Shown here: positions 9,433 through 64,000 of the stretch, one piece after another
Layout: every line of letters begins with the position of its first letter
Numbering within the stretch: the first letter of the stretch is position 1
Origin: Thysanoteuthis rhombus
Taxonomy: Eukaryota > Mollusca > Cephalopoda > Oegopsida > Thysanoteuthidae
NCBI GenBank assembly: GCA_963457665.1
Contig: OY735207.1
Span: 32,719,578 to 32,783,577 of the forward strand
DNA: 64,000 nucleotides
Direction of reading: 5' to 3'
Translations under genes and position numbers: made by a program
The notes under the pieces: generated by a model
What the model was told of the DNA's origin: nothing
Database searches by the model: none
Seen by the model: only the letters and a program-made list of their open reading frames with translations

Positions 9433-9493
9433 ATGGGGATGGGCCATGTTCAGTCTTTGTTAATTTTAATTCTGATTTTTCTATGCAATCGAG
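9433..9493 (+). CDS. NCSTN: NCSTN exon 1: start codon and signal peptide
   Basis: ATG at 9433 opens 20 codons with a hydrophobic core (SLLILILIFLC) and ends one base into a codon. That base joins the first two of exon 2 to make Gly21, giving CNRGFSVRTK. Human nicastrin reads LCRGNSVERK at the same place, which supports the join strongly. Without splicing, the frame stops three codons later (TGA). The donor is GTTTGT, weaker than the GTAAG-type donors elsewhere in the gene. An alternative start at Met3 (9439) is possible. Confidence 0.8.
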
Positions 9494-40500: not shown

Positions 40501-43500
40501 TTGTCTTAAAATTATCAAATGTGTGTCCATGCATGCATAGTAAGGTCCCTTCTAATTGGTTGCCAAGTTACATCAAGGCTATGCAATGGGCTCACTAGGT
40601 ATTCAAAACGATTGGATACTCTCTTGACAGACACATGCACACACATGTAGGTACATCAATAATCACATCACGTAATTATGAAAAAAGATACTTATATTGC
40701 ACTATGAATATTTATTTTTCAATATAACTTCCTTCCTTCTTGATGCACTTAATTCAGTGGTGTGTGTTACATAGCTCGAACATTATCCTGAAAATGTCAA
40801 ATCAAAATTCAGTTAATAACTATGTGTCTACTTATTGGTGCATCCCTGTATATATGTATGGAGCAAAGATAGAACTCAATGTGGTTAGACAGCCAGACTC
40901 TCGGATGACATTTGTTGTAATATATGTGGCTCTTATTTTGAGTGCCGATTTTCAAGAGATTCTGACCCTCCCCTTTTTTGAGGGCTGACATATGATCTTA
41001 GCTCTTCTTTTGACCTCATTTCAAACTCAGTGAAGTTTGGTAAATATATTTATGTACATTTTTTTTGTGAAAATAAACATTAAATGAGACCCAATTAGTC
41101 AAGTGAAATGATGTAAGTCGAAAAAAAAATTTGTCCAAGTTTTGAAAATGCCTTTTTAATTGTGTGTAATTTTACATTTTCATTCACTTTTCTCAGATTA
41201 TGATTGGCTTTCGGGTGAATATTCAACTTGGACAGAGAGTATCTGGTTGCAAAATGCTATGTCTGTGCGTGTGTTCCTTATACCCAGCAACAAATTGCAA
41301 GTAAGGAAAACTGAAAACTATTACTTTTTATTTCATTTTATGTATTTTTTCTTCCCTCCCCACTTCCCCTGCAAGGATCAATCTCCTCCTCCTTCACCCC
41401 TTATCCCTTCTCCATCTCCGCTTTACACATGCATATACTCTCACTTCACCTACTCACTCTCACCACACTCCCTCTCATGTTAGTTTCTTGTTAGTGTTTA
41501 GTGAACATAATTAGTGGAATGTTATAATTAGTTTTATTGCTTGGTAATGAAATAGTCCTTTGTCATCGTAGTTAGTTTTTCTTTACTTTTTTTTTCCAAA
41601 CAACCAACAATGATATAATGGCAAAAATATTTTTTTTTTTTTTTATGCATTATCATATTTTTAAGTATCAATTAAATCCACAAATTTTATATCTATTTCT
41701 TCTCAGCTATATTCCCTCTGGTTCTTTGTAGTAAGTGGGTGCAAAAATTTTGCTGTACAATTATTTTTTCCTGCGACAAAAGATTGAGCATGCTTCTGAA
41801 TTGAAAATAGGGAATCAGTATTATTTCATAAAAACTTAGTGAGCTACCTACAGGATTTGTAGTCTTTGTGCACACCCTAATTTGCTTTCTACATTGGTTT
41901 CAAAATGTGTGTGCATGCACACAGCATCAAGGGAATTATGCTTCTATCCATTTTGATCATAATATGTTGACTGAAGTCTGTTAGGTATTTGTTCTGTTAT
42001 TTGCTATGCATCTTGAAAATAGTTTTTATATTTATTTCTTATCACAATGTTCAGGGCCAGATTAAGCTAGTCTATCGTCTGTAGCATGTTATAAAGGGGC
42101 TTCATATGAAAAAATACATATAAATATCAAGACACATACATTCTTTACTTTCATAGTAATTAAATTTTTCAATTGCTATACAGCCAGATAATACAACAAA
42201 TATGCCTGACATTTCAGTAATGGTATTAGGAATTTAGTTTCAAATATCTTCATATTTATTTGTCATCTATGTATCATATAGATTCCACACTTCCATGTTC
42301 AATAACTGTTGAAATAACACTAATCAAAGATATTCGATTAAAATCTCTAATCTTGGGCACCCAGTCGTTCAAAAAAGTAGAGAGTCATGTACTATCATTG
42401 TAATTGAACAAGTGCAGAATTTCTGAATCAGAATTGAGTCTGCAAGCATCAGACCTGGAGCCCTTGAAATTGCAAAGCCATTGCAAATAGTACATAGTTA
42501 ATCTGGTATTAACTATCCTTATCTCTTTGTTATGAACATTGTTTTGACACATGAACTCTTCTAGGCTTTTGCTCTGTACTCTGCTGTGCATTTTATGCAA
42601 ATTAAAAGGTGGAGAAATACCTGTTTTTCGGGAGGATAAAATTCAAATCAAAGAATAAATTTTTTTTTCCCAAACTCATAAATGGTTAGGGTTGAAAATA
42701 GTTGATTCCTTTTAAATACTCATGAAATTCTTTTTGAGTCCTTGATGAATCACAATTCCCTGGGTGAAAAGCTGCACTTTATCCTGAACTAGAAGTCATT
42801 GCTTGGAAAGTTTACTATGAAAACAACTGAGAAATTGCAGTATTTCCTGTTGTTAGATGCACTCCTGATTTTTCCAGCTAAAATTTGGAAAAAGTCAAGT
42901 GTACCAGTGAAGTGAGTCTGCTCTTTGGTCCTGTTGTGTCTGTTAAAAAAAAAAAATATTGGTTCTTATAAAGTCTATTCCAGGATCCCAAGAATGAAAT
43001 AATGCATGTATATAAAATATTTTTCATTTCCACCCCCAAAATTTTGTTCTGATATAAATAGCACCCAGCCCTCTTCCTTTCTCTTAATTAGCTGTAGGTA
43101 GGGTGACAAGCTGCACCTTCATTTTCTTGAGTCAGGCTAGGTGAATATAGGAAAGAACATGGGAATCAAAAAAAGAATAAGTTTTTTTTCTGTTTGCACT
43201 CAAAAGGTATTTTTGTATGATTTTTTTTTCTTTTCCTCTTCCTTTCCTTTTAGCTTCAAACATACAGGGTTGATTTTAAAAGGTTTATTTCAAGAAAAAA
43301 AAGGCCTCTTTAGAACGGGGGTGGGTATAATAGCTCATTGAATTGATAAAGTCAGGGTGTGTGGGCTGTTCATTTTGCTGCACAACTTGAATCATGAGAT
43401 AGCCGTATCCTCATTCTTTGATTGCTTCATCATACCTGACTAGCTCTAACATGACTTATGGGTATTTAATAATCTTACTTTAGTCTGGCACAAGGCCATG

Positions 43501-54200: not shown

Positions 54201-57200
54201 TCAAAGGCTCCATCTGCCCTGCTAACCTATAGCTAGAGGGTGGAGTGGATTCATGTCTTTCTCAAAGTCAGTAGTACGAAGTGAACGTAAGCTGCCTTTG
54301 CCAGAAATTTGACTCAGGGATGTTTGACCTGTGCTTAATTGGTTCACTGCTTGATTTAGGCTTCACTGTTATTATTGTGTATATTTTGCTTAGTTTTTTT
54401 TTTTTTTCTCATTTCTTAATGTGTGGAAAGGCTCTTCATTCTGGGATTCAAGAACCATTTTCTCCAATGGCATAAACATCAAAAATGGAAAGACAAAAAT
54501 AGCAAGCTGTATCAGCTTTAATAGCATTTTAAATTTCTACTTTTGTTTATATCCACCAGCTACTGACTTAGTTTGTTGGTATGTTGAGCTTTGATTTTGA
54601 TAGGTCGGCATCGAACCCAAATGCATACAAAAGTTCTTCACTCTTAGAAGCTTTAATGGGTTGGAAATAACATACTATGTTCAACTTTTTTAAGCTGTCA
54701 TTTTGGGCTGGGATCTTAGTGAGTTATCTTTATCTGGTTACAGGGACTGGGCAGTTTGTGTCCTTGTACACATTTAAGCATGTGGGTCCCGATGTTAAAC
54801 TGACCTCGTCACATTCTGCCCTCCATCTACTATAAGCTGTCCAGTAGAAAGATGGTAAAAAATCTGCGAAGCCAATCACCAAAGTCAATTTTCAGAATGG
54901 TTCATTGGTGCACATTCAAAATGATCAACCTGGCCTGTCAAATATGATATGCTCAATGTCTATATACATGGGTCCAATATCACAATCAACTGTGGCTTAG
55001 AACAGAAGTTGCTCTTGTGACTACTTTTGCAGATTTTAGATCATCTCTGCTCGTGTTTCTATAGTAAATGACAGCTTTATGAAAGTCAAATTTGAGTAAA
55101 AATATCTTCATTTTGAACTCAACTTGTAGTGAGGAGGTTGAGATGTTTTTGTGGTTTTGTCAGTCCATCTATTAGATTGGATGCCCACCAAAGCTCAAGG
55201 ACTCAGTCTGCCCTGCTATTTATACATAGCTAGAGGGAGAAGTGATCAAATCTTGCCTTTCCCAAGGGCTTTAATCTGAAGTGAAACAACCATCTCAGCC
55301 AGTGTTTGAACTTGTTTCAACAATTCTATTTCCCATGTTTTTAATCATTAGGCCACCCACACCTCCGAGGTTGAACATTGTACATAATTTCTGTCGCATT
55401 AAAGCCTGTTTCCAGTTGACAACAATCGTGTGTGTATTTGGATTCCTGTCAGTCCTATCAGGTTTTAATATAGAAATCTATATAAGGGTGGTGGTGCGCT
55501 CAATTTTCAAGAAAACTTGGTGCCATATTTCTGATTATCTTTCCTTTCTATTTCATCATTTATAAGATGTTATAATATTGTTACTCATCATTTTATTTGA
55601 ACTGATATATTCATCTTCTACTTGATTTTTGTTTAAGTGATCTTTGTGAGTGTATGATAGGTTTATCCTCAATTTTTAATTCATGTAGATTAACCTTGAA
55701 ATTGTCTCATACATCTTGAAATTTTAATTGTTACAAATGGAAATAGAGCCCACAACCTTTCAATTACTATCATGATGTAGCTGCACTACAAGAGGTGCAA
55801 GAAGTCAAATCCACTGATGAATAAAATTCACTTTTGGTAGTCAAAGCCACTGGTGAATGGTAAGACATGCGTTAGACAACAGTAAGGTGTGGAAAGTCTT
55901 ACATTTTAAAGTAACCGTCCAGATGGCGCGGATACCTTGTTGGTGTTTTGTGGTTGTAGTAGCTATAGTGGGCTTCTGGTGAAACTCTTTAGTGTTACCA
56001 TTGGTAGTGAGCTCGTATAGTTTGGTGGTTAGTTTCTCACTGTTACTACATACTATTTATAAAATAGAAACAACTCGGTTATCACTATATTACCCCTTTC
56101 CTGTACTAGTTAAAATTATTGTTTGAAGATTTAGTCAGGAATCAGAATGGTCCTGGCTGATCTTGGAGCTGGTCAAGTAGTAGAAGTAGGGTTTTTCACC
56201 TGTGTACTAGTCAATGGGATAGGTGTAACAGATGCAAGTAATGGAGTGGTTGGTTCTGGGCTAACATGACATTGAGATTGGATAGGGTCCAAAGGTATAC
56301 TTCTCTACACATAACTTCAGCTCTGCATCCGGAAGTTTAGTAACCAGAAGCTGGAGACTTGTAAGATGCTCTGCCTCAGTCGTGCCTCTCATTGATTAGT
56401 CATCAAGAGAGCAGAGGACTCCAGGTATACCTTGGAGTGTTTGCTTCATGGCTGTTTGAAAGATTCTTGGAGCTGAACATATACCAAAGCTTAGTCTATT
56501 GAATTGAAAAAGACCCTTGCTTATGTTAATCGCTGTATAAATTTTTGACACCTCATTCAGGAGAAGCTGCACATAACCCTGCAAAGGTGGAAGAGACCTT
56601 GTAATAATCTGATCCTGGTTATGCTTTATTGGGTCACTGTCTTCAAGCCGGCACCTGAATAACAGAGGGCTTGTTCTTTCCTTCATGCGAGCAGGCTCTC
56701 ACTTAGGATCAGATGCAGAATTGCCCACTGCGATAAGTGTGCTTGGCTGCAGGCCCAACATCCTCTCAACTAAACTGTTTGTAGATGGTTTATATACTGC
56801 CGAAGTAATTTCTAATGCCATTATTAGCTGAAAATTCTTTGAATCCCCTGCTAGTAAAGCAAGGGTCATTGTCAGATACAATAGTTATTGGGAACCCCAT
56901 TAAACAAACAGCATAGGTGTTTTATAGTATCATTAGCATTAGAACCCGAGGTAGGGAATATGTGAACCCACTTAGGGTAGGCATCAAACATGATTAAAAA
57001 ATATTAGCCTTGCACTGGGCCCACAGTCTACATGGAGACTATACCAGGATTGGCTATGATATTCCCAGGGGAGGCAATTCTGCTCTTGCAGGGATCTTGT
57101 TAGACTCCCAGTCTTTGCTTATGTTAATTGCTTTATAAATTTTTGACACCTCATTCAGGAGAAGTTGCATATAACCCTACGACATATCTAATTTTGAAAA

Positions 57201-60200
57201 TAATTTCCTCCTGACAAACTAGCAAATAAATTGTCCAACTTCAGAATAGAGTATCTATCAACTTTAATGATTTTATTTACCACAGCTTATAGCTGTCATG
57301 TTCTCAGTCTATTATCAACTATTAGAAGTGACCATAGCTGCAACCCATTTTGAATTTGAGAAATAATGTCTTTATTAACAAACCTGTTTAATTCTTATTC
57401 TTATAGAATAGGGAATAGGTCGAGCTTTACACTAAACAAGAGGTTCTCCTTTATCCATCAGTGTAGAAAACGTCTCTCTTTTATAACATCCCAGACCTGG
57501 AGAAAATAAATAGGGAATTTTACTCTTACATCTTCAAAAAAACCTAGTGTCAAAAGATACAGATTGGCACTTTTAGCAGACCAAATAGTTTTAGTATGTC
57601 TCTATCCAGGAGAAGAGGACTCAGATTTTTAACAAGTTACACGATATTTTCAGTAACTTTAGTTTGTTTATGTGTGATATTAATGTATAATTCCCCTTGA
57701 ATAGTTCATAGGGAGCCATCATGACACTCATGTAGCTGAGGACATTGTTCTGTAGACCACAGAGTTCTGTAGGATTGTTCGCTAATTAGTACACGAGTAG
57801 CCTCTGTGTGGAGTTCCATATTAATAGAAACACATATCTCAGAATTTTTGAGATGAGGTATTGTAATTATTTCTATTATTATTTGGACCATCCTCATCCT
57901 GATTGTTTTTCGTACGTTTCGGCCGTTGTACTCTACAGCCTTCATGAGGTATCATCTGGTAGGTGTGGGGAAGTAACGAACCAAACCCTTTATTTAACCG
58001 AACTCCCCTCTTAACATCAGTAGTATTATTATTGTCTCACACTGGGATTGAACCTAGAACCATCAGATTACTTGCAGTAATTTTGTCTGATTCTGTAACC
58101 ACTACGCTATGTGTCCATGTGGATGAAGGCTGTAGAGTACAACGGCCGAAACGTTGTATGAAAAACAACCAAGATGAGGATGGTCCGAATAATAATAGAA
58201 ATACCTTACGAACAAACTGGAACTTAGATTGGATTGACAATACAGCCAGTTGTGTAAGAAAATATACAATCATTTTAGGGTGTTAGTACATTTGAATAGT
58301 TCTGGTCATAAGAAGTACTCTTAGCATTCTGGTTACTATCAGATTTAGAAAAACACACTTATTGATTGCCTTATTTTACTCATACAGATTCAGTCTATGA
58401 ATTTAATGTAATAAATGTTTACATATCTATTTTATCTGATTTTATAACCTCTAAGTTAAAATGTTTTCAGAGGGGTTGGTTTCATTCATTGTCTTCAACT
58501 TTGAGAAAAGTCATTAACATTTCAAAATTTTGTTCGGGTAATTGAATCTCTTCTTCAAAAAGTTTTGCCACTTTTTTTTTTTGAATCATACACCTGATGA
58601 GGGCTGAAGAATGGCTCAAACAAAATGTGTTGGCTAAATCAAGAACGCAAAGCAGAGATTCAATTATTCAAATTTTTTGTTTTGTTTGTTATTACTTTTA
58701 CTACTTGACTCACCTTTAAATCCATGACTTTGGTTGGCACTATGAGTCCCATTTCTTTGCATGTTAAGCAAGAACATTAACAAGAGAATCAAGATGAATG
58801 GAAAAAAAGTAAAATGAAATATTCTTGACGACGAATGATAGAAAAATATTACTAGCGTCAAGATGGAAATTTTCATCCATAACATCAAATTCCAAATGTA
58901 CAAAACAACCAATATAAATCAAAGATAATCTGAGATGAAGATATTAGTCTGAATAGATTAATGAGTAACCTCTTTTTTTTTTTTTTTTTTTTCTTTTTTT
59001 TTTTCTCCAATGAAGCATTGTCAACCATTATTAGTTTTTGACTGGTATTTCTTTCATCTTAATCTTAATCTTGGGTGCTTTTCACTGCAATGACCTAGAC
59101 CACCAGTTGACAGCGTGGATCAGAAATAAAACATAAACTCTCTGTAAGATTCGAACTTGCATCCTTTTGCCTTGGGTTTCTTATTCACTCTGTTGACTAA
59201 TGGCTGTAGACTGAAAGCTTTTCATCAAGATGAAAAGCAAGTGAGATTAAGATGAAAGAAATACTAGTCCAAAATCAATTATGGCTGTCTCTATTTGTTT
59301 TAATTTTTTGTTGTTGTTTGGTGTCAGTACTTCTGCTACTCAGGTAAGGGTGGTGTCAGCTGTCACTTTCTACTTTCTCATCTTTTGTATTTTTATTTCT
59401 TTCTTTTTCTTTAATTAAATAAAGAAATGCTTAAAAAATATATATCAGAATTCTCATTGCAAACTTTTGCTGGCTCATTTTACTTCCAGGCAGTAACTCT
59501 GTTTGTCGGTGTTCTCATCCTGTGCCTGGCTATGGGAATCGTCTGTTTTCTGAACAGCCGAGCAGAGGTTGTCTTCTCTGCGGCACCAGTTTGCCCTGCT
59601 TTTGATGGCTAGGAACTACGCCCTAAGTCCCCTTCCTCCATTTCAGACAAAGCTCCTCCCCTAATCTTTTTTCTCCAACTAAGCACCTTCCTTATCTTTT
59701 TTCTCTTTCCAAAGCTCCTCCTCCACTTGTCCCATCAAAGCTCCTCATTCTGCCCTAAGCAAGCTCATTGGCCACTTAAAACCCCACCCATTGACTTCAT
59801 TAACCTTCTCCCCCTTCACTAAACTCTTCCCTCTTTGACTAAACCTTTCCTAATCTTTCCTGTTGATACCTTCAGTGAGACATCTGCCAAATTCCATCAG
59901 GAAAAGAAAAAAAATTGAGACAATACACAAAAACATTCCGCCAAACTTCTTTTAATTAAAAAACAAAACAAACTTTGCTTCTATTTCCATTTGTCATTTC
60001 TTTTAAGCCTTTCATTTACAATAAATAAAAACAACACCTGAATGAAAACAAAAAAAAATGTTAGACTTGAAAAATTTTTTAAAAATCCCTGCCCATCGAA
60101 TAATGGGGTAAGTATAATGTAAACATATTTTTCTTCTTGATGTTTTTTTTTTTTCCTTTTTAAAATGTCTTTGGATCTAGTGTGTGTTCAGCAAGTCCTT

Positions 60201-63099
60201 CAATAATATTCTACAGATAAAGCCGTTTATTGTGATAATTAGGGACGCAGTTGGAAACATTGAACTAAGAATATAAAAATTGGAACAATTTGCATTCATT
60301 GTTATATTATTTCATAATGATTGTAAACATTAAAAAACATTTAATTTTGGTAAGTGGGTTATTTTTGATCATTTTTCAAAAAGGTTTTGGGATCAACTGA
60401 TTTGACTAAAACACCCATTTGATGACATTATCCGTGAATATAATAAACGGCTTTCTCTGTATTTTAATTCCTTTAACTTGAATTGAAACTTTGTTATTAC
60501 TAAAGATCTGCAAATAGAAACATTAGATTATGTAAGAGAATTATACATTTATGGATTAAATATTCTCTGATAGTAAAAGGCCAAAACTATGTCTAAAATT
60601 ACATAAGGTGAATATTTTTCTCTCCTAGTTTTTGTAAGGAATTTTGATATAGATATGCCTTGATATTCATTGGTTTGCAAGATATTTTACTAAAATACAA
60701 ATTTATTTAGTCTCTCCTCCACCAATCAATCTATATTTTTTTTTTTTTTTGTATCCTCAACTATTACTAATTAGCTCATTACTTTATTCTGCTAAGCACG
60801 GGATTGAATTTCTATCCATAGCAATAAATATTTCAACTCTTATTTATTACAGTGATCGGCAAACCCCTGGGCCAAATATGATCCGTTGCCTTATTCCACT
60901 TGGCCTGTAAACTCTATTGAATATTTATATTACATACAGAAATTAGAGAAAACCAGAAAAATTTAAAGTGCAATTGGACAATATTTTGTTCCCCAAAAAA
61001 GATTTCCATAGTTGGTACATAGTTTTTGTAGGTATATATTCCTAAGAAGGAAAACATAATAAAAAAAAACAAACAAGCATTGAATGAACATTGTTTCATC
61101 TCTTAATTGCTTTGGCCCACAAGACATAGAAATATCTCTAATCTGGCCCACCTATCAAAAAGTTTGCTCACCCCTGATCTATTCTACTGAAAATGTGGAG
61201 GCACTTGATGATTAACAAGCTTAGCTAGCTTGATGTATGCTTCCCTGATATGGCTTAATGTCAAACTAAGCTGAGTTTAATCAATATCTACATAGAAGTT
61301 TTTGTTGTCTCTTACAAAACTTACTTAGCAAACCATTGCTTATAGAATTAATCTTGTAGCTACAAACCAAACTAAAATACGCTTACTAAATATTTAATCC
61401 ATGAAAAATGCTCTTGTGCACAACTCCTGGATTTAATATCATAAGACTCCAACAGGTACGCATATGGAGACAAGTGCAGTAAGGAGGATGTCTTTGTGAG
61501 CCAAAATGAATTTCAATTAATAATTATAGATTTTATTTAGAGTTGAACGAAATGTTTTTGCATTGGACTGTATTTTGTATATTAAAATGATATTCTCAAA
61601 TGTGCAGAGTAAGCCACTTATTGGAATCATTTTGAGAGAGGGTCTTTTGAAAAACATTTTGCAAAAAATATAACAATTGGAACAATGCGCTTTCGTTGTT
61701 ATAAACAACTTTATGAAAAAACGGATATAATATTTATGATAATGGATGATATGATTTTTAATACATTTTAAATTAAAACTTTTGGACAGACTGATTTTGA
61801 TAATAACCGTTTGATAACCTCCTCCGTGATTTTGATAAGTGACTTCCTCTGTATTAGTTTGTTTACGCTGTGCATGAAAATAACCAAAGAAAACTCTTGG
61901 AAAAGATTGACGTCCTTCCAAGTGTCGGCTTGTTCCTGAAATTTGATATTTTCATTTCGTAATAATGGTTCGAAAATCATTTTTGTTGTTGTTTCATTGC
62001 ATATATCAAGGGAGATAATTCTAACTTTTTAGTGAGAAGGGAGGTAACTAGTATTGAAACTACACTTTTTTTGTTTTCATCTGAATATACATTCATTAGT
62101 CTTGTTGAATATCAATACATTCGACGTAAAATCATAAGAATTTTTTAGAAACATAATTCTGTAATCTTTAATCATATTTCAATTTTCCAAGTATTTGGTT
62201 TTTATTTTTTTTGTTTATCCTATCTCTTTGAGGGAATGACAGGTACCTCGAATTGCTAATAATACTTCTCAAGGGCCCAGCTACTGAAATGATGAAAGAA
62301 CTGCATCCACATGCTGGAAAGGTCTATCTATGTTGATACATTAGGGCTGTTGAACTGGACATGCTGATGAAGTTGCTGTGTATTCTGTTGGTCATCAGGA
62401 TGGTCGAGTTTTAAAAAGTTCTATTGTCCAGCTGACCTTGAGAAAGAGTTTATGGGGATATTATTCTATATATTATTCTATATTTGTAAATATATATTGT
62501 ACATATATTCGTAATTTTTCCTTCAATTTATAAGATGCAAAATTATCATTATTATTCAAGATTTACTCAGAATGGTGTCCTCATCTTCGTTGTTAAGGTC
62601 ACGTTTTGTTGCACCCACCAGCCTTCTTCCGGTGTCTATTGTAGTTCGTAACTCCCTTGAAATTTCAAACCAAACTCTTTATTCAATCCATGAGGGTAGA
62701 TTATCCTCATTTGCAGTCCATATTAGAAGATATCTCGTACCTGTTGATTCTTCTCAGTAAATTTGTCATTGCGTTGATACTTGTCTGCCTCTTCTACTGA
62801 ACAGAAGTATACGACTTTTTTTTTTTTTTTTTTTGCACTATGTAAACGGGACAAAGAGTTAAGATGTTTCTTGGATAATGTTGTTGTAGAGAGGGTTTTT
62901 TCTTTTGTTGCTTTTTTAAACTAACTTTTTTGTCTGCTTTATTAATTTTTTTTTTAACTTCTTTTTCTTTCTTTTTCTTTTTCAGACATTGACACTCCTG
63001 TTGGGTATTATTGTGCTTCTTGTCTCGTCCTTAGTCATCTACGTCGTTGCTGAAAAGGCTGATATTCTTTTTGCTGGTGTGCCCTATGCTTATTACTAG
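9433..63099 (+). CDS. NCSTN: Nicastrin, gamma-secretase subunit (whole gene, 14 shared exons plus alternative exon 15a or 15b)
   Basis: Nicastrin is the type I membrane glycoprotein that gates substrate entry in gamma-secretase, together with presenilin, APH-1 and PEN-2, in ER, Golgi, plasma and endosomal membranes. Joining exons at 9433-9493, 18101-18199, 19832-19955, 21342-21469, 22135-22277, 25794-26051, 28651-28803, 32140-32352, 32806-32975, 33337-33526, 34089-34176, 35612-35757, 38736-38844 and 41197-41300 keeps one frame for 662 codons. Exon 15a then gives 702 residues and exon 15b 699 (human 709). Visible landmarks are a signal peptide (1-20), LNATSQIGC near 44-52, the aminopeptidase-like domain with FFQGEAFDYIGS (about 319-330), EYSTWTES near the end of the ectodomain, and one transmembrane helix. 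E323 lines up with human E333. There are 13 N-glycosylation sequons. The cysteine pattern matches the paired cysteines of human nicastrin. Exon borders are inferred from homology and splice sites, without transcript data. Confidence 0.95.
10980..11062 (+). repeat. Short direct duplication
   Basis: TTATTCATGTGTTCTGACAT and TTATTCATGTGTTCTAACAT occur 44-45 bp apart within matching flanks. Confidence 0.6.
11100..11400 (+). repeat. Dispersed repeat family, copy 2
   Basis: Contains the TTTATGTTAAATCGGTCC core, then a CAACAAAAGGCAAGAGGAGTA segment that matches the 12280-12540 copy in the same order, around a poly-T stretch. Confidence 0.5.
11913..11992 (-). repeat. Small palindromic-ended element, copy 2 (inverted)
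   Basis: The reverse complement of this segment resembles 2562-2632, including AGCTGAA in the middle and AGATTC-type inverted ends. About 75-80 bp long. Confidence 0.5.
12280..12720 (+). repeat. Dispersed repeat family, longest copy
   Basis: Contains the family's TTTATGCGAAATTAGTCC core, AAAATGCAAGAGAAGTAACT, and two spaced occurrences of GACATTGGTCATGTGA (about 12508 and 12697). The repeated block within the copy suggests a tandem duplication. A reverse copy follows the TA microsatellite at 17240-17340. Confidence 0.5.
17155..17240. repeat. TA/TG microsatellite
   Basis: TA, TG and TATG units run for about 85 bp. The frames across it are artefacts. Confidence 0.95.
17240..17340 (-). repeat. 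Dispersed repeat family, reverse copy beside the TA run
   Basis: GTCATGTAACCAATGTCTTT is the complement of the GACATTGGTCATGTGA block at 12508 and 12697. The copy abuts the microsatellite. Confidence 0.45.
18101..18199 (+). CDS. NCSTN: NCSTN exon 2: N-terminal ectodomain
   Basis: Codes for residues 21-53 plus one base. It contains KIYVNIKGQ and CFRRLNATSQIGC, matching human KIYIPLNKT and CVRLLNATHQIGC. It holds the first conserved cysteine pair (C40, C52) and the first N-glycosylation site (N45). Acceptor TTCTTTTTAG, donor GTAAGT. Confidence 0.93.
18531..18720 (+). mobile_element. tRNA-derived SINE, family A
   Basis: Starts with a polymerase III A-box-like GATGGCCTAATGGTTAACAC and contains GCACTGATGCCCT, as in the other copies at 23380, 35215, 54060 and 55180. 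Confidence 0.55.
19191..19491. mobile_element. hAT-type MITE, about 300 bp
   Basis: The left end CTGTGGTAAGCAACCTATGG and the complement of the right end, CTAGGGTAAGCAACCTTTTT, form terminal inverted repeats, each followed by GGCC a few bases further in. No transposase is coded. The 8-bp target duplication is not clear. Confidence 0.55.
19832..19955 (+). CDS. NCSTN: NCSTN exon 3
   Basis: Codes for residues 54-94. VLNEGPYPPYIMLIAAKDF corresponds to human VLTDGPNPPYMVLLESKHF, in the small lobe of the ectodomain. Acceptor TTTTTTTGTAG, donor GTGAGA. It begins with two bases and ends with two bases of split codons, matching its neighbours. Confidence 0.94.
19956..21341 (+). other. NCSTN: NCSTN intron 3
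   Basis: AT-rich, with a T-homopolymer at about 20861-20889. It is flanked by short fragments (AGCTTAGTCTGGCAC and AGCTTAGTCTGCCCC) that resemble one edge of the tRNA-like repeat seen at 5930-6460. Nothing else was recognised. Confidence 0.6.
21342..21469 (+). CDS. NCSTN: NCSTN exon 4
   Basis: Codes for residues 95-137, including RQNITELIDSKRVNGILI and SCPNDGYG, the latter matching human QCPNDGFG. Two sequons (NIT, NST) are present. Acceptor TATTTGCAAG, donor GTATGT. Confidence 0.94.
21470..22134 (+). other. NCSTN: NCSTN intron 4
   Basis: A 665-bp intron. No repeat family or conserved element was recognised in it. Confidence 0.7.
22135..22277 (+). CDS. NCSTN: NCSTN exon 5
   Basis: Codes for residues 138-185. 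CSNIEWNPSGEGQ and YSIPIFLL align with human CREIQWNSLGNGL and FSFPIFLL. Two sequons (NNT, NSS). It ends in phase 0 at GTAAGC. The acceptor is short on pyrimidines (TCTATTGAAG), but the joined reading frame and the homology leave little doubt. Confidence 0.93.
22278..25793 (+). other. NCSTN: NCSTN intron 5
   Basis: A 3.5-kb intron holding a SINE fragment at about 23380-23500 and a T-homopolymer near 24411-24432. The rest is AT-rich and unrecognised. Confidence 0.65.
23380..23500 (+). mobile_element. tRNA-derived SINE, family A, fragment
   Basis: AGCCTAACTGTTAGCATGG resembles the A-box region of the copy at 18531. It is followed by AATGCCCTAGAGAAAGGCAT, the conserved centre of the family. Confidence 0.5.
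25794..26051 (+). CDS. NCSTN: NCSTN exon 6
   Basis: Eighty-six codons, residues 186-271. It contains CYEKYNN, PLCAAEL, TCIRRSN, YCDPLGDQN and SVIIAACR, aligning with human CYQDHNL, PLCAMQL, TCMRRS, VCDPLSDYN and RVVVAATR. Four of the family's conserved cysteines lie here. Long T-tract acceptor ending TAG, donor GTAAGT, phase 0 at both ends. Confidence 0.95.
26052..28650 (+). other. NCSTN: NCSTN intron 6
   Basis: A 2.6-kb intron. A 121-codon open frame on the minus strand at 26208-26573 has no recognisable domain and is treated as chance or an unidentified repeat. The remainder is AT-rich with poly-T/poly-A runs. Confidence 0.6.
28651..28803 (+). CDS. NCSTN: NCSTN exon 7
   Basis: Codes for residues 272-322. 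SLFENVNRSADNPVTSIV, LLAAAEAIGK and FTFFQG align with human SFFWNVAPGAESAVASFV, QLAAAEALQK and FVFFQG, in the bacterial aminopeptidase-like domain. Acceptor ATTTTTTAG, donor GTAAGT, phase 0 at both ends. Confidence 0.96.
29170..29460 (+). mobile_element. mariner-type transposase remnant, C-terminal part
   Basis: SNPYSLDFAPCDFWLF matches the HPPYSPDLAPCDFWLF block, which carries a catalytic aspartate of mariner transposases. After a frame change, DELKENAAKQLMAIL and GCWEECSSDYL match the C-terminal WEKCIxxxGDYF region. Frame changes and stops show it is dead. Confidence 0.8.
30400..31090 (+). repeat. Degenerate tandem repeat, units about 130-145 bp
   Basis: GATCAGCGAGCTAATCTTGCTG, GTCATCGAGCTGAACCCGTTG and GATCTGCAAATTAATCTTGC mark successive units. 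They share GGATCTCCCACTATTGATG and a GGGTTCAATCCTC block that resembles a polymerase III B box. The clearest units start near 30487, 30868 and 31011. Confidence 0.5.
31340..31430. repeat. TA microsatellite
   Basis: About 90 bp of TA repeats with two CA interruptions. Confidence 0.95.
32140..32352 (+). CDS. NCSTN: NCSTN exon 8: DYIGS motif exon
   Basis: Seventy-one codons, residues 323-393. It opens with EAFDYIGSSRMVYDME, nearly identical to human ETFDYIGSSRMVYDME. The DYIGS motif is coded at 32149-32163, and E323 corresponds to human E333, which has been implicated in substrate handling. The segment KEGKHGLHALNLDHLSHF is longer than the human equivalent. Two sequons (NES, NIS). Acceptor TTTTGCCAG, donor GTAGGT. 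Confidence 0.97.
32353..32805 (+). other. NCSTN: NCSTN intron 8
   Basis: A 453-bp intron containing a short TA microsatellite at 32457-32484 and a CT run near 32597-32610. Nothing else was recognised. Confidence 0.7.
32457..32484. repeat. NCSTN: Short TA microsatellite in intron 8
   Basis: About 14 TA units, 105 bp after the exon 8 donor. Confidence 0.9.
32806..32975 (+). CDS. NCSTN: NCSTN exon 9
   Basis: Codes for residues 394-449 plus two bases. EPNHSQPLPPSSSQRFLR aligns with human RPNQSQPLPPSSLQRFLR, and VVFANHETQFSN with VVLADHSGAFHN. One sequon (NHS). Acceptor CTTTTCAG, donor GTAAGT. Confidence 0.96.
32976..33336 (+). other. NCSTN: NCSTN intron 9
   Basis: A 361-bp intron with no recognisable repeat. 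Confidence 0.7.
33337..33526 (+). CDS. NCSTN: NCSTN exon 10
   Basis: Codes for residues 450-513. FYNSMFDMGQLIGVDFP and ILARTLYELATNGNKSQIQ align with human YYQSIYDTAENINVSYP and [20 protein letters not shown]. Two sequons. Acceptor CTCTTTTCAG, donor GTAAGT. Confidence 0.95.
33527..34088 (+). other. NCSTN: NCSTN intron 10
   Basis: A 562-bp intron whose main feature is a TA microsatellite at about 33730-33790. Confidence 0.7.
33730..33790. repeat. NCSTN: TA microsatellite in intron 10
   Basis: About 60 bp of TA repeats. Confidence 0.95.
34089..34176 (+). CDS. NCSTN: NCSTN exon 11
   Basis: Codes for residues 514-542 plus one base: VTRLLYCYILNSNC, then MFHMILDEE, matching human VTRLLYGFLIKANN and WFQSILRQD. 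Two extra cysteines (in LYCY and SNCP) are absent from the human segment. Acceptor ATTTTAG, donor GTAAGT. Confidence 0.9.
34177..35611 (+). other. NCSTN: NCSTN intron 11
   Basis: Contains a + strand SINE copy at about 35215-35445. The block at 34560-34900 is less AT-rich than its surroundings but not identified. Confidence 0.65.
35215..35445 (+). mobile_element. tRNA-derived SINE, family A
   Basis: CAGGGTGGCATAACTGTTAC at the 5' end, CACTGATGCCCTCAGAAAAG in the centre and TCTCCAGCTATGAAGAGGG after it, in the same order as the other copies. Confidence 0.6.
35612..35757 (+). CDS. NCSTN: NCSTN exon 12
   Basis: Codes for residues 543-591. NLYVSVKNNLKPLTYITE fits the position of human HYIAVSSPTNTTYVVQ, and LENVSKSQC fits VVNLTREQC, placing the conserved cysteine equivalent to human C586. 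Acceptor TATTTCAG, donor GTAAGT. Sequence identity is lower than in the central exons, but frame and position fit. Confidence 0.9.
37155..37260 (-). mobile_element. tRNA-like SINE head, family B
   Basis: The complement reads GTTGAAGCGGTTACCTCATC, then GGCAGGTTCAATTCCTGCAG, an excellent B-box match. It abuts a TA run. Confidence 0.6.
37440..37545 (-). mobile_element. tRNA-like SINE head, family B, second copy
   Basis: The complement contains TTTAGTACAATGGTAAGTGC (A-box-like), GTTGAAGCTGC shared with the first copy, and CTGGTCCGATTCTTGCAGCA (B-box-like). Confidence 0.6.
37535..37585. repeat. TA microsatellite in intron 12
   Basis: About 45 bp of TA repeats beside the SINE fragment. Confidence 0.9.
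38736..38844 (+). CDS. NCSTN: NCSTN exon 13
   Basis: Codes for residues 592-627. TRYSEAVSPAFII matches human ARLARALSPAFEL, and the cysteine in QGFCLVAV sits at the place of human C620. The exon ends one base into a codon that completes as Asp with exon 14. Acceptor TTTTTACAG, donor GTAATT. Confidence 0.92.
38845..41196 (+). other. NCSTN: NCSTN intron 13
   Basis: A 2.4-kb intron. The block at 40540-40600 resembles 17570-17640 (shared GGTTTGC..AGTTACAACAAGGC type core) and is part of a dispersed repeat. Otherwise unrecognised. Confidence 0.6.
41197..41300 (+). CDS. NCSTN: NCSTN exon 14: last shared coding exon
   Basis: Codes for residues 628-662. GEYSTWTESIW and VRVFLIPSNKLQ match human TEYSTWTESRW and ARIFLIASKELE. 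This is the end of the ectodomain, just before the membrane helix. It ends in phase 0 at GTAAGG, so either exon 15a or exon 15b can follow in frame. Confidence 0.96.
43472..43600 (-). repeat. Single copy of the 5930-6460 tRNA-like unit
   Basis: TAGTCTGGCACAAGGCCATG and GGTGAGGATCAAATGCAC match the consensus of the tandem array. Confidence 0.5.
44683..44975 (+). repeat. Tandem duplication, period about 154 bp
   Basis: The two units begin GCAAAGGTTTCCAGCATTTT and GCAAAGGTTTCTGGCATTTT. They share CATCATTATTCAGTCATCAA-like and ATTGTGTATTCCAT-like blocks in the same order. Confidence 0.75.
45425..45584. repeat. CA and TA microsatellites
   Basis: CA repeats at 45425-45445 and TA repeats at about 45529-45584, with ACA units between. 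Confidence 0.95.
46860..47041. mobile_element. Hairpin MITE with about 73-bp arms
   Basis: The left arm (CATAGACATCACCTTAACCA..TTGGCCACAGA) and the right arm (TCTGTGGCCAATGTGGTCAA..CGATGTCCATG) are inverted copies around a 35-bp loop. The outer ends pair as TGTATCCCACACC with GGTGTGGAATGAG. Confidence 0.75.
48174..48240. repeat. TA/TG microsatellite
   Basis: TA repeats at about 48174-48215, then TG and TATG units. Confidence 0.95.
50051..50080. repeat. GAGC-type short repeat
   Basis: GGGCGAGCGAGCGAGCAAGC is a G/C-rich tetranucleotide run in an AT-rich setting. Confidence 0.85.
51596..51745. mobile_element. Probable hAT-like MITE, about 150 bp
   Basis: The left end TAGTGATTCTCAAAGTGGGG and the complement of the right end, CAGTGGGTTTCAGAGTCC, are imperfect inverted repeats of the hAT type. 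Target duplications are not clear. Confidence 0.45.
52435..52900 (-). mobile_element. mariner-type transposase remnant, N-terminal DNA-binding part
   Basis: The complement translates to HETVNKCTARHWFQKF, GHGCPPVIDNIQLRAI, then KELNVDHSTVVQHLHQI and KKLDKRVLHDQKE. These match the paired helix-turn-helix region of Mos1/SETMAR-like transposases. It contains stops and lacks the catalytic domain. It does not join the remnant at 29170, which is a different part in the opposite orientation. Confidence 0.85.
54060..54320 (-). mobile_element. tRNA-derived SINE, family A, longer reverse copy
   Basis: The complement runs CAGCTTACGTTCACTTCGTA, GAGAAAGACATGAATCCACT, CCCTCTAGCTATAGGTTAGC, GCCCTGGTGAAGGAGGAGGC and CCAGCAACTTCCAGTGAAAA, extending the family past its tRNA-like head. 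Confidence 0.6.
55180..55375 (-). mobile_element. tRNA-derived SINE, family A, reverse copy
   Basis: The complement begins GTGTGGGTGGCCTAATGATT (A-box-like) and includes AAGCCCTTGGGAAAGGCAAG and CCCTCTAGCTATGTATAAAT, matching the other copies in order. Confidence 0.65.
55860..57450 (-). mobile_element. Decayed Ty3/Gypsy LTR retrotransposon fossil
   Basis: The minus strand shows reverse transcriptase blocks such as GLFQFNRLSFGICSAPRIFQ and an LDD motif (56396-56686), an integrase block with YKPSTNSLVERM (56699-56881), and a second reverse transcriptase segment at about 57110-57440. A purine-rich tract on the minus strand near 56090-56100 may mark the edge of an LTR remnant lying about 55860-56090. 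The element is old, incomplete and broken many times, and its parts are out of the usual order. Confidence 0.75.
57855..58206. mobile_element. Foldback element enclosing a tRNA-like sequence
   Basis: The arms at about 57855-57955 and 58115-58206 are inverted copies. Both include GGCTGTAGAGTACAACGGCC followed by GAAACGT on the outward-reading strand, and GATGAGGATGGTCC. The loop holds a minus-strand tRNA-like region (58030-58115) with TAGCGTAGTGGTTACAGAAT as A box and GGTTCTAGGTTCAATCCCAG as B box. Probably a non-autonomous retroelement or a foldback that captured a SINE. Confidence 0.65.
59027..59285. mobile_element. Second foldback element, 205 bp upstream of exon 15a
   Basis: The arms at 59027-59085 and 59231-59285 pair through ATTTCTTTCATCTTAATCTT and GAGATTAAGATGAAAGAAAT. 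The loop on the minus strand contains GCAAGTTCGAATCTTAC, a B-box-like sequence. It has the same architecture as 57855-58206 but different arms. Confidence 0.6.
59490..59612 (+). CDS. NCSTN: NCSTN alternative terminal exon 15a: transmembrane helix and C-tail, version A
   Basis: Forty codons then TAG, in phase 0 after acceptor TTACTTCCAG. The hydrophobic stretch AVTLFVGVLILCLAMGIVCF spans the membrane. NSRAEVVF follows, equivalent to human NAKADVLF, and the tail is SAAPVCPAFDG. Joined to exon 14 it gives a 702-residue protein. The helix carries two cysteines and the tail one, unlike exon 15b. The upstream pyrimidine tract is interrupted, suggesting a weaker splice site than that of 15b. The exon has no internal stop and keeps the family motif, so it does not look like a dead duplicate. 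Confidence 0.88.
   Translation, partial: AVTLFVGVLILCLAMGIVCFLNSRAEVVFSAAPVCPAFDG
60020..60029 (+). promoter_or_regulatory. NCSTN: Candidate poly(A) signals for the exon 15a transcript
   Basis: Two overlapping AATAAA hexamers lie about 410 bp after the exon 15a stop. They would give a 3' UTR of roughly 0.43 kb. The cleavage site has not been observed. Confidence 0.5.
60213..60460. mobile_element. MITE pair, copy 1 (248 bp)
   Basis: Inverted ends ACAGATAAAGCCGTTTATT and AATAAACGGCTTTCTCTGT. It contains ATTGGAACAATTTGCATTC and TTATCCGTGA, found in the same places in copy 2. No coding capacity. Confidence 0.7.
60850..61176. mobile_element. hAT-type MITE, 327 bp
   Basis: The left end is CAGTGATCGGCAAACCCCTG. 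The complement of the right end is CAGGGGTGAGCAAACTTTTT. Both are followed by GGGCC-type inner sequence. The flanks ATTTATTA and ATCTATTC agree at 6 of 8 positions, as expected of an aged 8-bp hAT target duplication. Confidence 0.75.
61604..61852. mobile_element. MITE pair, copy 2 (249 bp)
   Basis: Starts GCAGAGTAAGCCACTTATTG and ends GACTTCCTCTGT. It shares ATTGGAACAATGCGC and a TCCGTGAT block with copy 1, in the same orientation and at almost the same length. Confidence 0.65.
62570..62690 (+). repeat. Diverged copy of the 57855 foldback left arm
   Basis: CCTCATCTTCGTTGTTAAGG, then CACCAGCCTTCTTCCGGTGT and CAAACCAAACTCTTTATTCA, follow the order CCTCATCCTGATTGTTTTTC, CTACAGCCTTCATGAGGTAT and ACCAAACCCTTTATTTAACC at 57890-57990. 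Confidence 0.45.
62986..63099 (+). CDS. NCSTN: NCSTN alternative terminal exon 15b: transmembrane helix and C-tail, version B
   Basis: Thirty-seven codons then TAG, in phase 0 after a long, nearly uninterrupted pyrimidine tract ending TTTTTCAG. TLTLLLGIIVLLVSSLVIYV is the membrane helix. AEKADILF matches human NAKADVLF more closely than does NSRAEVVF of exon 15a. The tail is AGVPYAYY, ending in aromatic residues as the human protein ends in SY. Joined to exon 14 it gives 699 residues. It is probably the ancestral version, with 15a the diverged copy, but that order is inferred from similarity alone. Confidence 0.92.
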   Translation, partial: TLTLLLGIIVLLVSSLVIYVVAEKADILFAGVPYAYY

Positions 63100-64000
63100 T
63101 AACTTCAGCCATATCCTAACCACTACCCAACCTTCACCTCAATGCCATCGATCATTCTGGACGACAAGGAAGACCGTATATACTGGATTATAAGACAAAT
63201 GGTTTACAAGGGTACTTGAAGGACTACTGCAACACATCCAAGGCCTATAAGTGTTTATATTGAGCTTCAGTAGACAGACTCCGAGTCATAATACCTAGTA
63301 CATTGGATGCAGTATAATATTTGTATAGTTTTTTTTGTCAAATCAGATGCCTGTCTTATAACCGGCATATACAGTATTCCAAGTGGATTTAAGAGGAAAT
63401 TTGAGAAAAATTAATAGCAAAATACTGGATTATTCTTAGGGACCAGAGAAACTTGCAAAATGCAAACCTTTAGGGTTTTTTCTCCTCTTAATATATAAAT
63501 ATAATAATTTCATGAATCACAATGCTAATCTGGTTTGAATTCATTAGCTACCATCATTGAATATTCTGATATAATATCGCAGATCGACTAATTCTGGACA
63601 GGGCTGATATTGTTGTGGTTTCAAATCCATGTGGTACTTAATTTATTTGGCACCTATTCATGTGTTGGATATGACTTCATGGCGAATCTAAGCAAACAAT
63701 AGTTTTCTTATGATGAATATACTCATCTATGACGTTTTTTCATTTTTCTAGCTTTTATTGATTTATACTTTTCCTTCAGTGATTTTAATTGCTGATTAAA
63801 TCATTATCAAATTCTCAAGTGAGGATTGAAATTAGAAAAATGTTATGTCATTCAAGGCCCTCTGAAAAGTTAGTCCTTAAATTTGGATAATTTCTATGAA
63901 GAAATTTCTGAGATGTCATGAGTGGTCTTTATTGAGTCTGAAATGGTCACTCATTTCCCACTAGTATCAAAGGTCAGTGTTCAAACCCTTATAAAAGAAA
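63100..64000 (+). other. NCSTN: Probable exon 15b 3' UTR and downstream sequence
   Basis: Follows the exon 15b stop. It contains a roughly 200-bp MITE with inverted ends (63176-63375). No AATAAA was found before the window ends. The variant ATTAAA at 63795-63800 is the nearest candidate poly(A) signal seen. Confidence 0.45.
63176..63375. mobile_element. MITE in the exon 15b 3' UTR, about 200 bp
   Basis: The left end CGTATATACTGGATTATAAGAC (63176 on) pairs with the right end TGTCTTATAACCGGCATATACAG. No coding capacity. Family not determined. Confidence 0.55.

Follow-up and report, generated by a model that had tools for sequence, protein, structure and literature searches.

The nicastrin locus and its shared exons

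Nicastrin is a subunit of gamma-secretase, a protease that acts in Notch signalling and in Alzheimer's disease. The stretch of Thysanoteuthis rhombus DNA analysed here, 64,000 nucleotides long and referred to below as the window, carries a nicastrin gene; the genome searched comprises 2.73 Gb in 514 contigs, with the window on the plus strand. The following features make up the part of the gene that all its predicted products would have in common.

9433–9493, plus strand: candidate exon 1, encoding a putative signal peptide; top-ranked of the candidates, with a weak donor (AG/GTTTGT)
18101–41300, plus strand: nicastrin exons 2–14 (13 exons), encoding the ectodomain and the juxtamembrane stretch; identified by GT-AG boundaries, PDB and Pfam
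41197–41300, plus strand: exon 14, the last common exon, ending in phase 0 with the donor CAA/gtaagg at 41300

The GT-AG rule is followed at all 13 of exons 2–14, and the joined frame is open over 641 aa. Both lobes of the nicastrin ectodomain are present and score over the Pfam cut-off (PF18266, E 5.3e-54; PF05450, E 2.4e-49) in a test sequence that included the candidate exon 1, and a rough draft of the protein matches human nicastrin in the PDB at 7.1e-41. For exon 1, the window and the 20 kb upstream of it were scanned for a signal-peptide exon of phase 1, and the candidate at 9433–9493 is the least certain part of the gene model. The sequence-only reading of this DNA had proposed products of 702 and 699 residues; these lengths come out exactly, but only if this candidate with its weak donor is the true first exon. 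As a side observation, retention of intron 14 (41301–41483) would keep the frame of exon 14 open for about 60 further residues, which include no nicastrin-type helix, and an early-ending form of nicastrin arising in this way is conceivable.

Two terminal exons in matching phase

Downstream of exon 14 lie two exons that could each complete the gene.

59490–59612, plus strand: exon 15a, encoding a membrane helix, the motif LNSRAEVVF and a tail ending in CPAFDG, with the stop codon TAG; identified by its acceptor and its similarity to human nicastrin
62986–63099, plus strand: exon 15b, encoding a membrane helix, the motif VAEKADILF and a tail ending in PYAYY, with the stop codon TAG; identified in the same two ways

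Exon 15a starts 18.2 kb past exon 14 and exon 15b another 3.4 kb further on; the encoded peptides measure 40 and 37 aa, respectively. Both exons begin in phase 0, compatible with the donor of exon 14, and each has its own stop codon. The acceptors, ...ttacttccag directly before 59490 and ...tttttctttttcag directly before 62986, were scored with a matrix built from the 13 other acceptors of the gene and obtained 7.3 (15a) and 10.6 (15b), within the gene's leave-one-out range of -1.7 to 14.5; among 3841 AG dinucleotides, 1.6% score as high as the former and 0.5% as high as the latter. Re-reading of the sequence reproduced the coordinates, acceptors, phase and stops that had been assigned to both exons earlier. 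The larger proposal, that a single nicastrin gene possesses two alternative terminal exons in matching phase, is likewise supported at the level of the DNA.

Similarity of both anchors to human nicastrin

The human C-terminus used as a query agrees with PDB alignments over residues 669–700. It was compared with all 778 peptides of 25–120 aa encoded by AG-led open frames on the plus strand of the window and the 10 kb downstream, among which 15b (score 62) ranks first and 15a (score 50) second, followed by a peptide scoring 40; the best of 894 peptides from the reverse strand scores 36. When the human segment was shuffled, the score of 15a was reached in 3 of 5000 trials and that of 15b in none of 5000. 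A tblastn search with the human protein places 15b and 15a at E values of 0.029 and 0.75, the first unrelated match following at 6.5. Both exons align to the human protein from position 671 onward without a gap. The earlier assignment of a nicastrin-type helix, a juxtamembrane motif and a stop to each is supported. Human nicastrin, 15a and 15b are identical at T672, L673, G676, L680, A694 and F698, that is, at 6 of 33 positions, and the mean hydropathy over 671–690 is 2.88 in 15a, 2.85 in 15b and 2.27 in the human protein.

The peptides are short, and it might be argued that one of the two frames is open by coincidence and that its acceptor is equally fortuitous. In a search of the PDB, 15b by itself matches the helix of human nicastrin at 0.059, and 15a by itself has no match at E values up to 10. 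Joined to exon 14, however, 15a matches human nicastrin at 5.1e-10 in an alignment that spans the helix and the motif, and residues 31–68 of this joint query match the construct of the human helix alone with an E value of 0.089. Permutation tests speak against chance as well: the observed similarity to the human protein was reached in none of 20000 permutations for 15a and in 1 of 20000 for 15b, and the ungapped similarity of 47 between the two exons themselves was reached by 1 of 20000. Together with the first and second ranks among the 778 peptides and the outcome of the shuffling, these results make a chance origin of either exon very improbable.

Copy number in the genome

Two copies of a last exon only 3.4 kb apart might also reflect a second nicastrin gene downstream, to which 15b would belong, or an error of assembly. 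Exon 14 and 15b each have one match in the genome, at their own locus; 15a has one real match, the other (E 8.65) containing a stop and being at chance level, and the 601-base stretch around 15a is unique in the genome. All three matches to the large ectodomain lobe (PF05450) fall at the nicastrin locus. Since exon 14, 15a and 15b are single copy, 15b is not part of a second nicastrin gene found by the searches. A third anchor exon was not found in the 20 kb downstream, where the best of 263 peptides scores 36, and 15a and 15b have diverged too far to represent haplotypes, so that both a second gene and a misassembly appear extremely improbable. A search for relatives with a 208-aa piece of nicastrin gave pattern matches, 14 in genome contigs and 37 in viral contigs, among which no relative was confirmed.

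Divergence and constraint of the pair

When 15a and 15b are aligned without gaps from their first codons, identity at codon positions 1, 2 and 3 is 11, 24 and 10 of 37, respectively: at chance level at positions 1 and 3, and far above it at position 2, the position that sets the polarity class of the residue. The 24 identities at position 2 exceed those of all 36 circular shifts (maximum 16) and were reached in 2 of 20000 block permutations carried out within the helix and within the tail. None of 230 other hydrophobic stop-free stretches from the window (overlapping, both strands) reaches 24 against either exon, the maximum of 22 leaving a narrow margin.

How long an exon without function would retain such properties was estimated by neutral decay starting from 15b, a run being counted as passing if the frame stayed open and the similarity to human nicastrin was at least that of 15a. 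At 1 substitution per site 1 of 4000 runs passes, at 0.5 the rate is 8 of 4000, at 0.25 it is 5% and at 0.1 it is 40%. Positions 1 and 3 have diverged to chance level, yet the frames, acceptors, motifs and stops of both exons are intact, which argues that both have been constrained for most of their separate history. The duplication of the anchor exon would accordingly be old, an age deduced from the sequences themselves.

A recent loss of function in one copy, below about 0.25 substitutions per site, is possible, and this leads to the view that only one of the exons is in use and that its counterpart was retired recently enough to look intact still. In line with this view, 15a lies below 15b in similarity to the human protein (50 versus 62), its acceptor is the weaker of the two (7.3 versus 10.6), and its synonymous codon usage is unremarkable, with 23% of 4159 stop-free intron pieces scoring as high, compared to 2.9% for 15b. 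The 40% of neutral runs that still pass at 0.1 substitutions per site are compatible with such a retirement. Set against this is the extent of divergence at positions 1 and 3 combined with the integrity of frames, acceptors, motifs and stops in both copies, and we consider the retirement of one exon unlikely.

The reading that we favour, and regard as probable, is that 15a and 15b are alternative last exons of a single nicastrin gene. They would have arisen when the membrane-anchor exon was duplicated long ago, selection having maintained both copies, and both are predicted to be used in RNA. In one mode exon 14 would be spliced to 15a and the RNA polyadenylated upstream of 15b; in the other 15a would be skipped and exon 14 joined to 15b.

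The membrane helix and its partners

The sequence-only reading had further suggested that exchanging the helix could alter which partner in the complex is bound. NMR data place E669, T672, G676, S683 and T687 on the face of human nicastrin that is directed towards APH-1, and the region V696–A700 also touches APH-1, according to that study (PMC4726005). Both anchors retain T672 and G676; S683 is present in 15b only and T687 in neither. Of the 4 APH-1-facing positions encoded by exon 15, 2 (672 and 676) are thus common to both. With these two residues in place, both forms probably assemble into gamma-secretase; the two products would share them along with an identical ectodomain.

Some observations are in line with a swap of partners, if both exons are used: the human helix adjoins APH-1, positions 683 and 687 of 15a are non-human, and so is 687 of 15b. 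The genome, however, contains one locus over the cut-off for APH-1, to which 4 of the 7 matches belong (within 8.4 kb), the other 3 lying elsewhere and below the cut-off. For PEN-2 there is one locus (2 of 2 matches), and for presenilin at least one locus over the cut-off (5 of 6 matches, 73 of 43107 candidates having been scored). A single APH-1 locus over the cut-off makes it unlikely that the anchors select among APH-1 paralogues, and T672 and G676 are retained in addition; we regard a change of partner as quite improbable.

Elsewhere the anchors differ. Human nicastrin is palmitoylated at C689, a modification that influences the stability of the protein and its association with rafts but leaves assembly unaffected, as summarised in a review (PMC10268010). 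15a has cysteines at the positions corresponding to human 681, 688 and 704, none of them exactly at 689, and 15b has zero cysteines. The products would therefore differ in the other surface of the helix, in acylatable cysteines (three in 15a, none in 15b) and in the cytosolic tail, and these differences would probably alter stability, membrane domain or cell compartment. Given that cysteines, tail and other helix faces differ, an effect of the swap on membrane placement or stability is our preferred hypothesis and would fit the differences between 15a and 15b better than a choice of partner, although differences in acylation and sorting between the two forms are speculative.

Comparison with known systems

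Nicastrin is usually regarded as an invariant subunit of gamma-secretase, the variety of the enzyme being due to presenilin and APH-1; in mammals APH1A and APH1B diversify the complex. PSEN1 and PSEN2 likewise give rise to several kinds of mammalian gamma-secretase, as described in two publications (PMC11130327, PMC10164903). In these cases diversity stems from gene duplication of other subunits, whereas here it would stem from splicing of nicastrin. Human nicastrin (NCSTN; PDB 5a63, 2n7q) has the same ectodomain lobes, a helix, an A-[DE]-hydrophobic-F motif and a short tail; the PDB protein sequences contain one anchor, in contrast to the two that are encoded by the present gene. Among the papers listed in a literature search that covered few subscription journals, none describes alternative terminal exons or membrane anchors for nicastrin.

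The nearest working model, by analogy and though not the same system, may be Drosophila Dscam1, whose exons 17.1 and 17.2 encode alternative membrane segments that steer the protein to dendrites or axons (PMC2566808). As in the present gene, a single ectodomain can be given either of two membrane segments encoded by alternative exons. The proteins themselves are different. Exon 17 of Dscam is internal; in nicastrin, by virtue of the stop codon in each of 15a and 15b, the choice of exon would also set the tail and the 3' UTR.

A more ambitious idea is that, with a single locus found for each subunit, anchor splicing replaces the paralogy seen in mammals and yields acylatable and non-acylatable forms that undergo Dscam-like sorting to different membranes or compartments; we put this forward tentatively, as an idea with a modest chance of being right. 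If the favoured reading of two alternative last exons is true, two kinds of gamma-secretase could arise from a single nicastrin gene, which would be a route to several such enzymes without gene duplication, and the pair would represent a natural swap experiment on the role of the nicastrin helix beyond holding the complex together.

3' ends and neighbouring repeats

Three further features bear on the ends of the predicted transcripts.

59613–59892, plus strand: C-rich, G-poor stretch after the stop of 15a (36.8% C, 7.9% G) with repeated AAAGCTCCTC words
60020–60029, plus strand: AATAAA hexamers that overlap one another, 408 nt past the stop of 15a and a candidate poly(A) signal for this exon
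63163–63384, plus strand: interspersed repeat past the stop of 15b, not including the exon itself; 75–83% identity

Among 6372 windows of 280 nt, taken with overlap from both strands, 2 reach the C content of the first feature, and both of these overlap it. The stretch is probably the 3' UTR of 15a and may offer a candidate site for C-binding regulators; C-rich-binding proteins would presumably be the candidate binders. GC content after the stop of 15b is ordinary, 14% of windows reaching the same level. The DNA that separates the two last exons is AT-rich and contains AATAAA at 5 sites, and because the hexamer is common in such DNA its occurrence at 60020–60029 is not distinctive on its own. 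Downstream of 15b the window has no AATAAA, the first being at 64483. Under the favoured reading, 15a and 15b would have separate poly(A) sites.

The interspersed repeat starts about 64 bases past the stop of 15b and has many copies in the genome; in a search with 62900–63500, 39 of the 40 matches listed (40 of 2675 candidates having been scored) cover query positions 264–485. A MITE-like element of about 250 bp lies between 15a and 15b at 60212–60461, with inverted ends of 20 bp (complementarity 95%); another copy of it, diverged in sequence, is located at about 61593–61860. Upstream of 15a, an open frame on the minus strand at 56396–56698 resembles a piece of a retrotransposon, which we take to be part of a reverse transcriptase.
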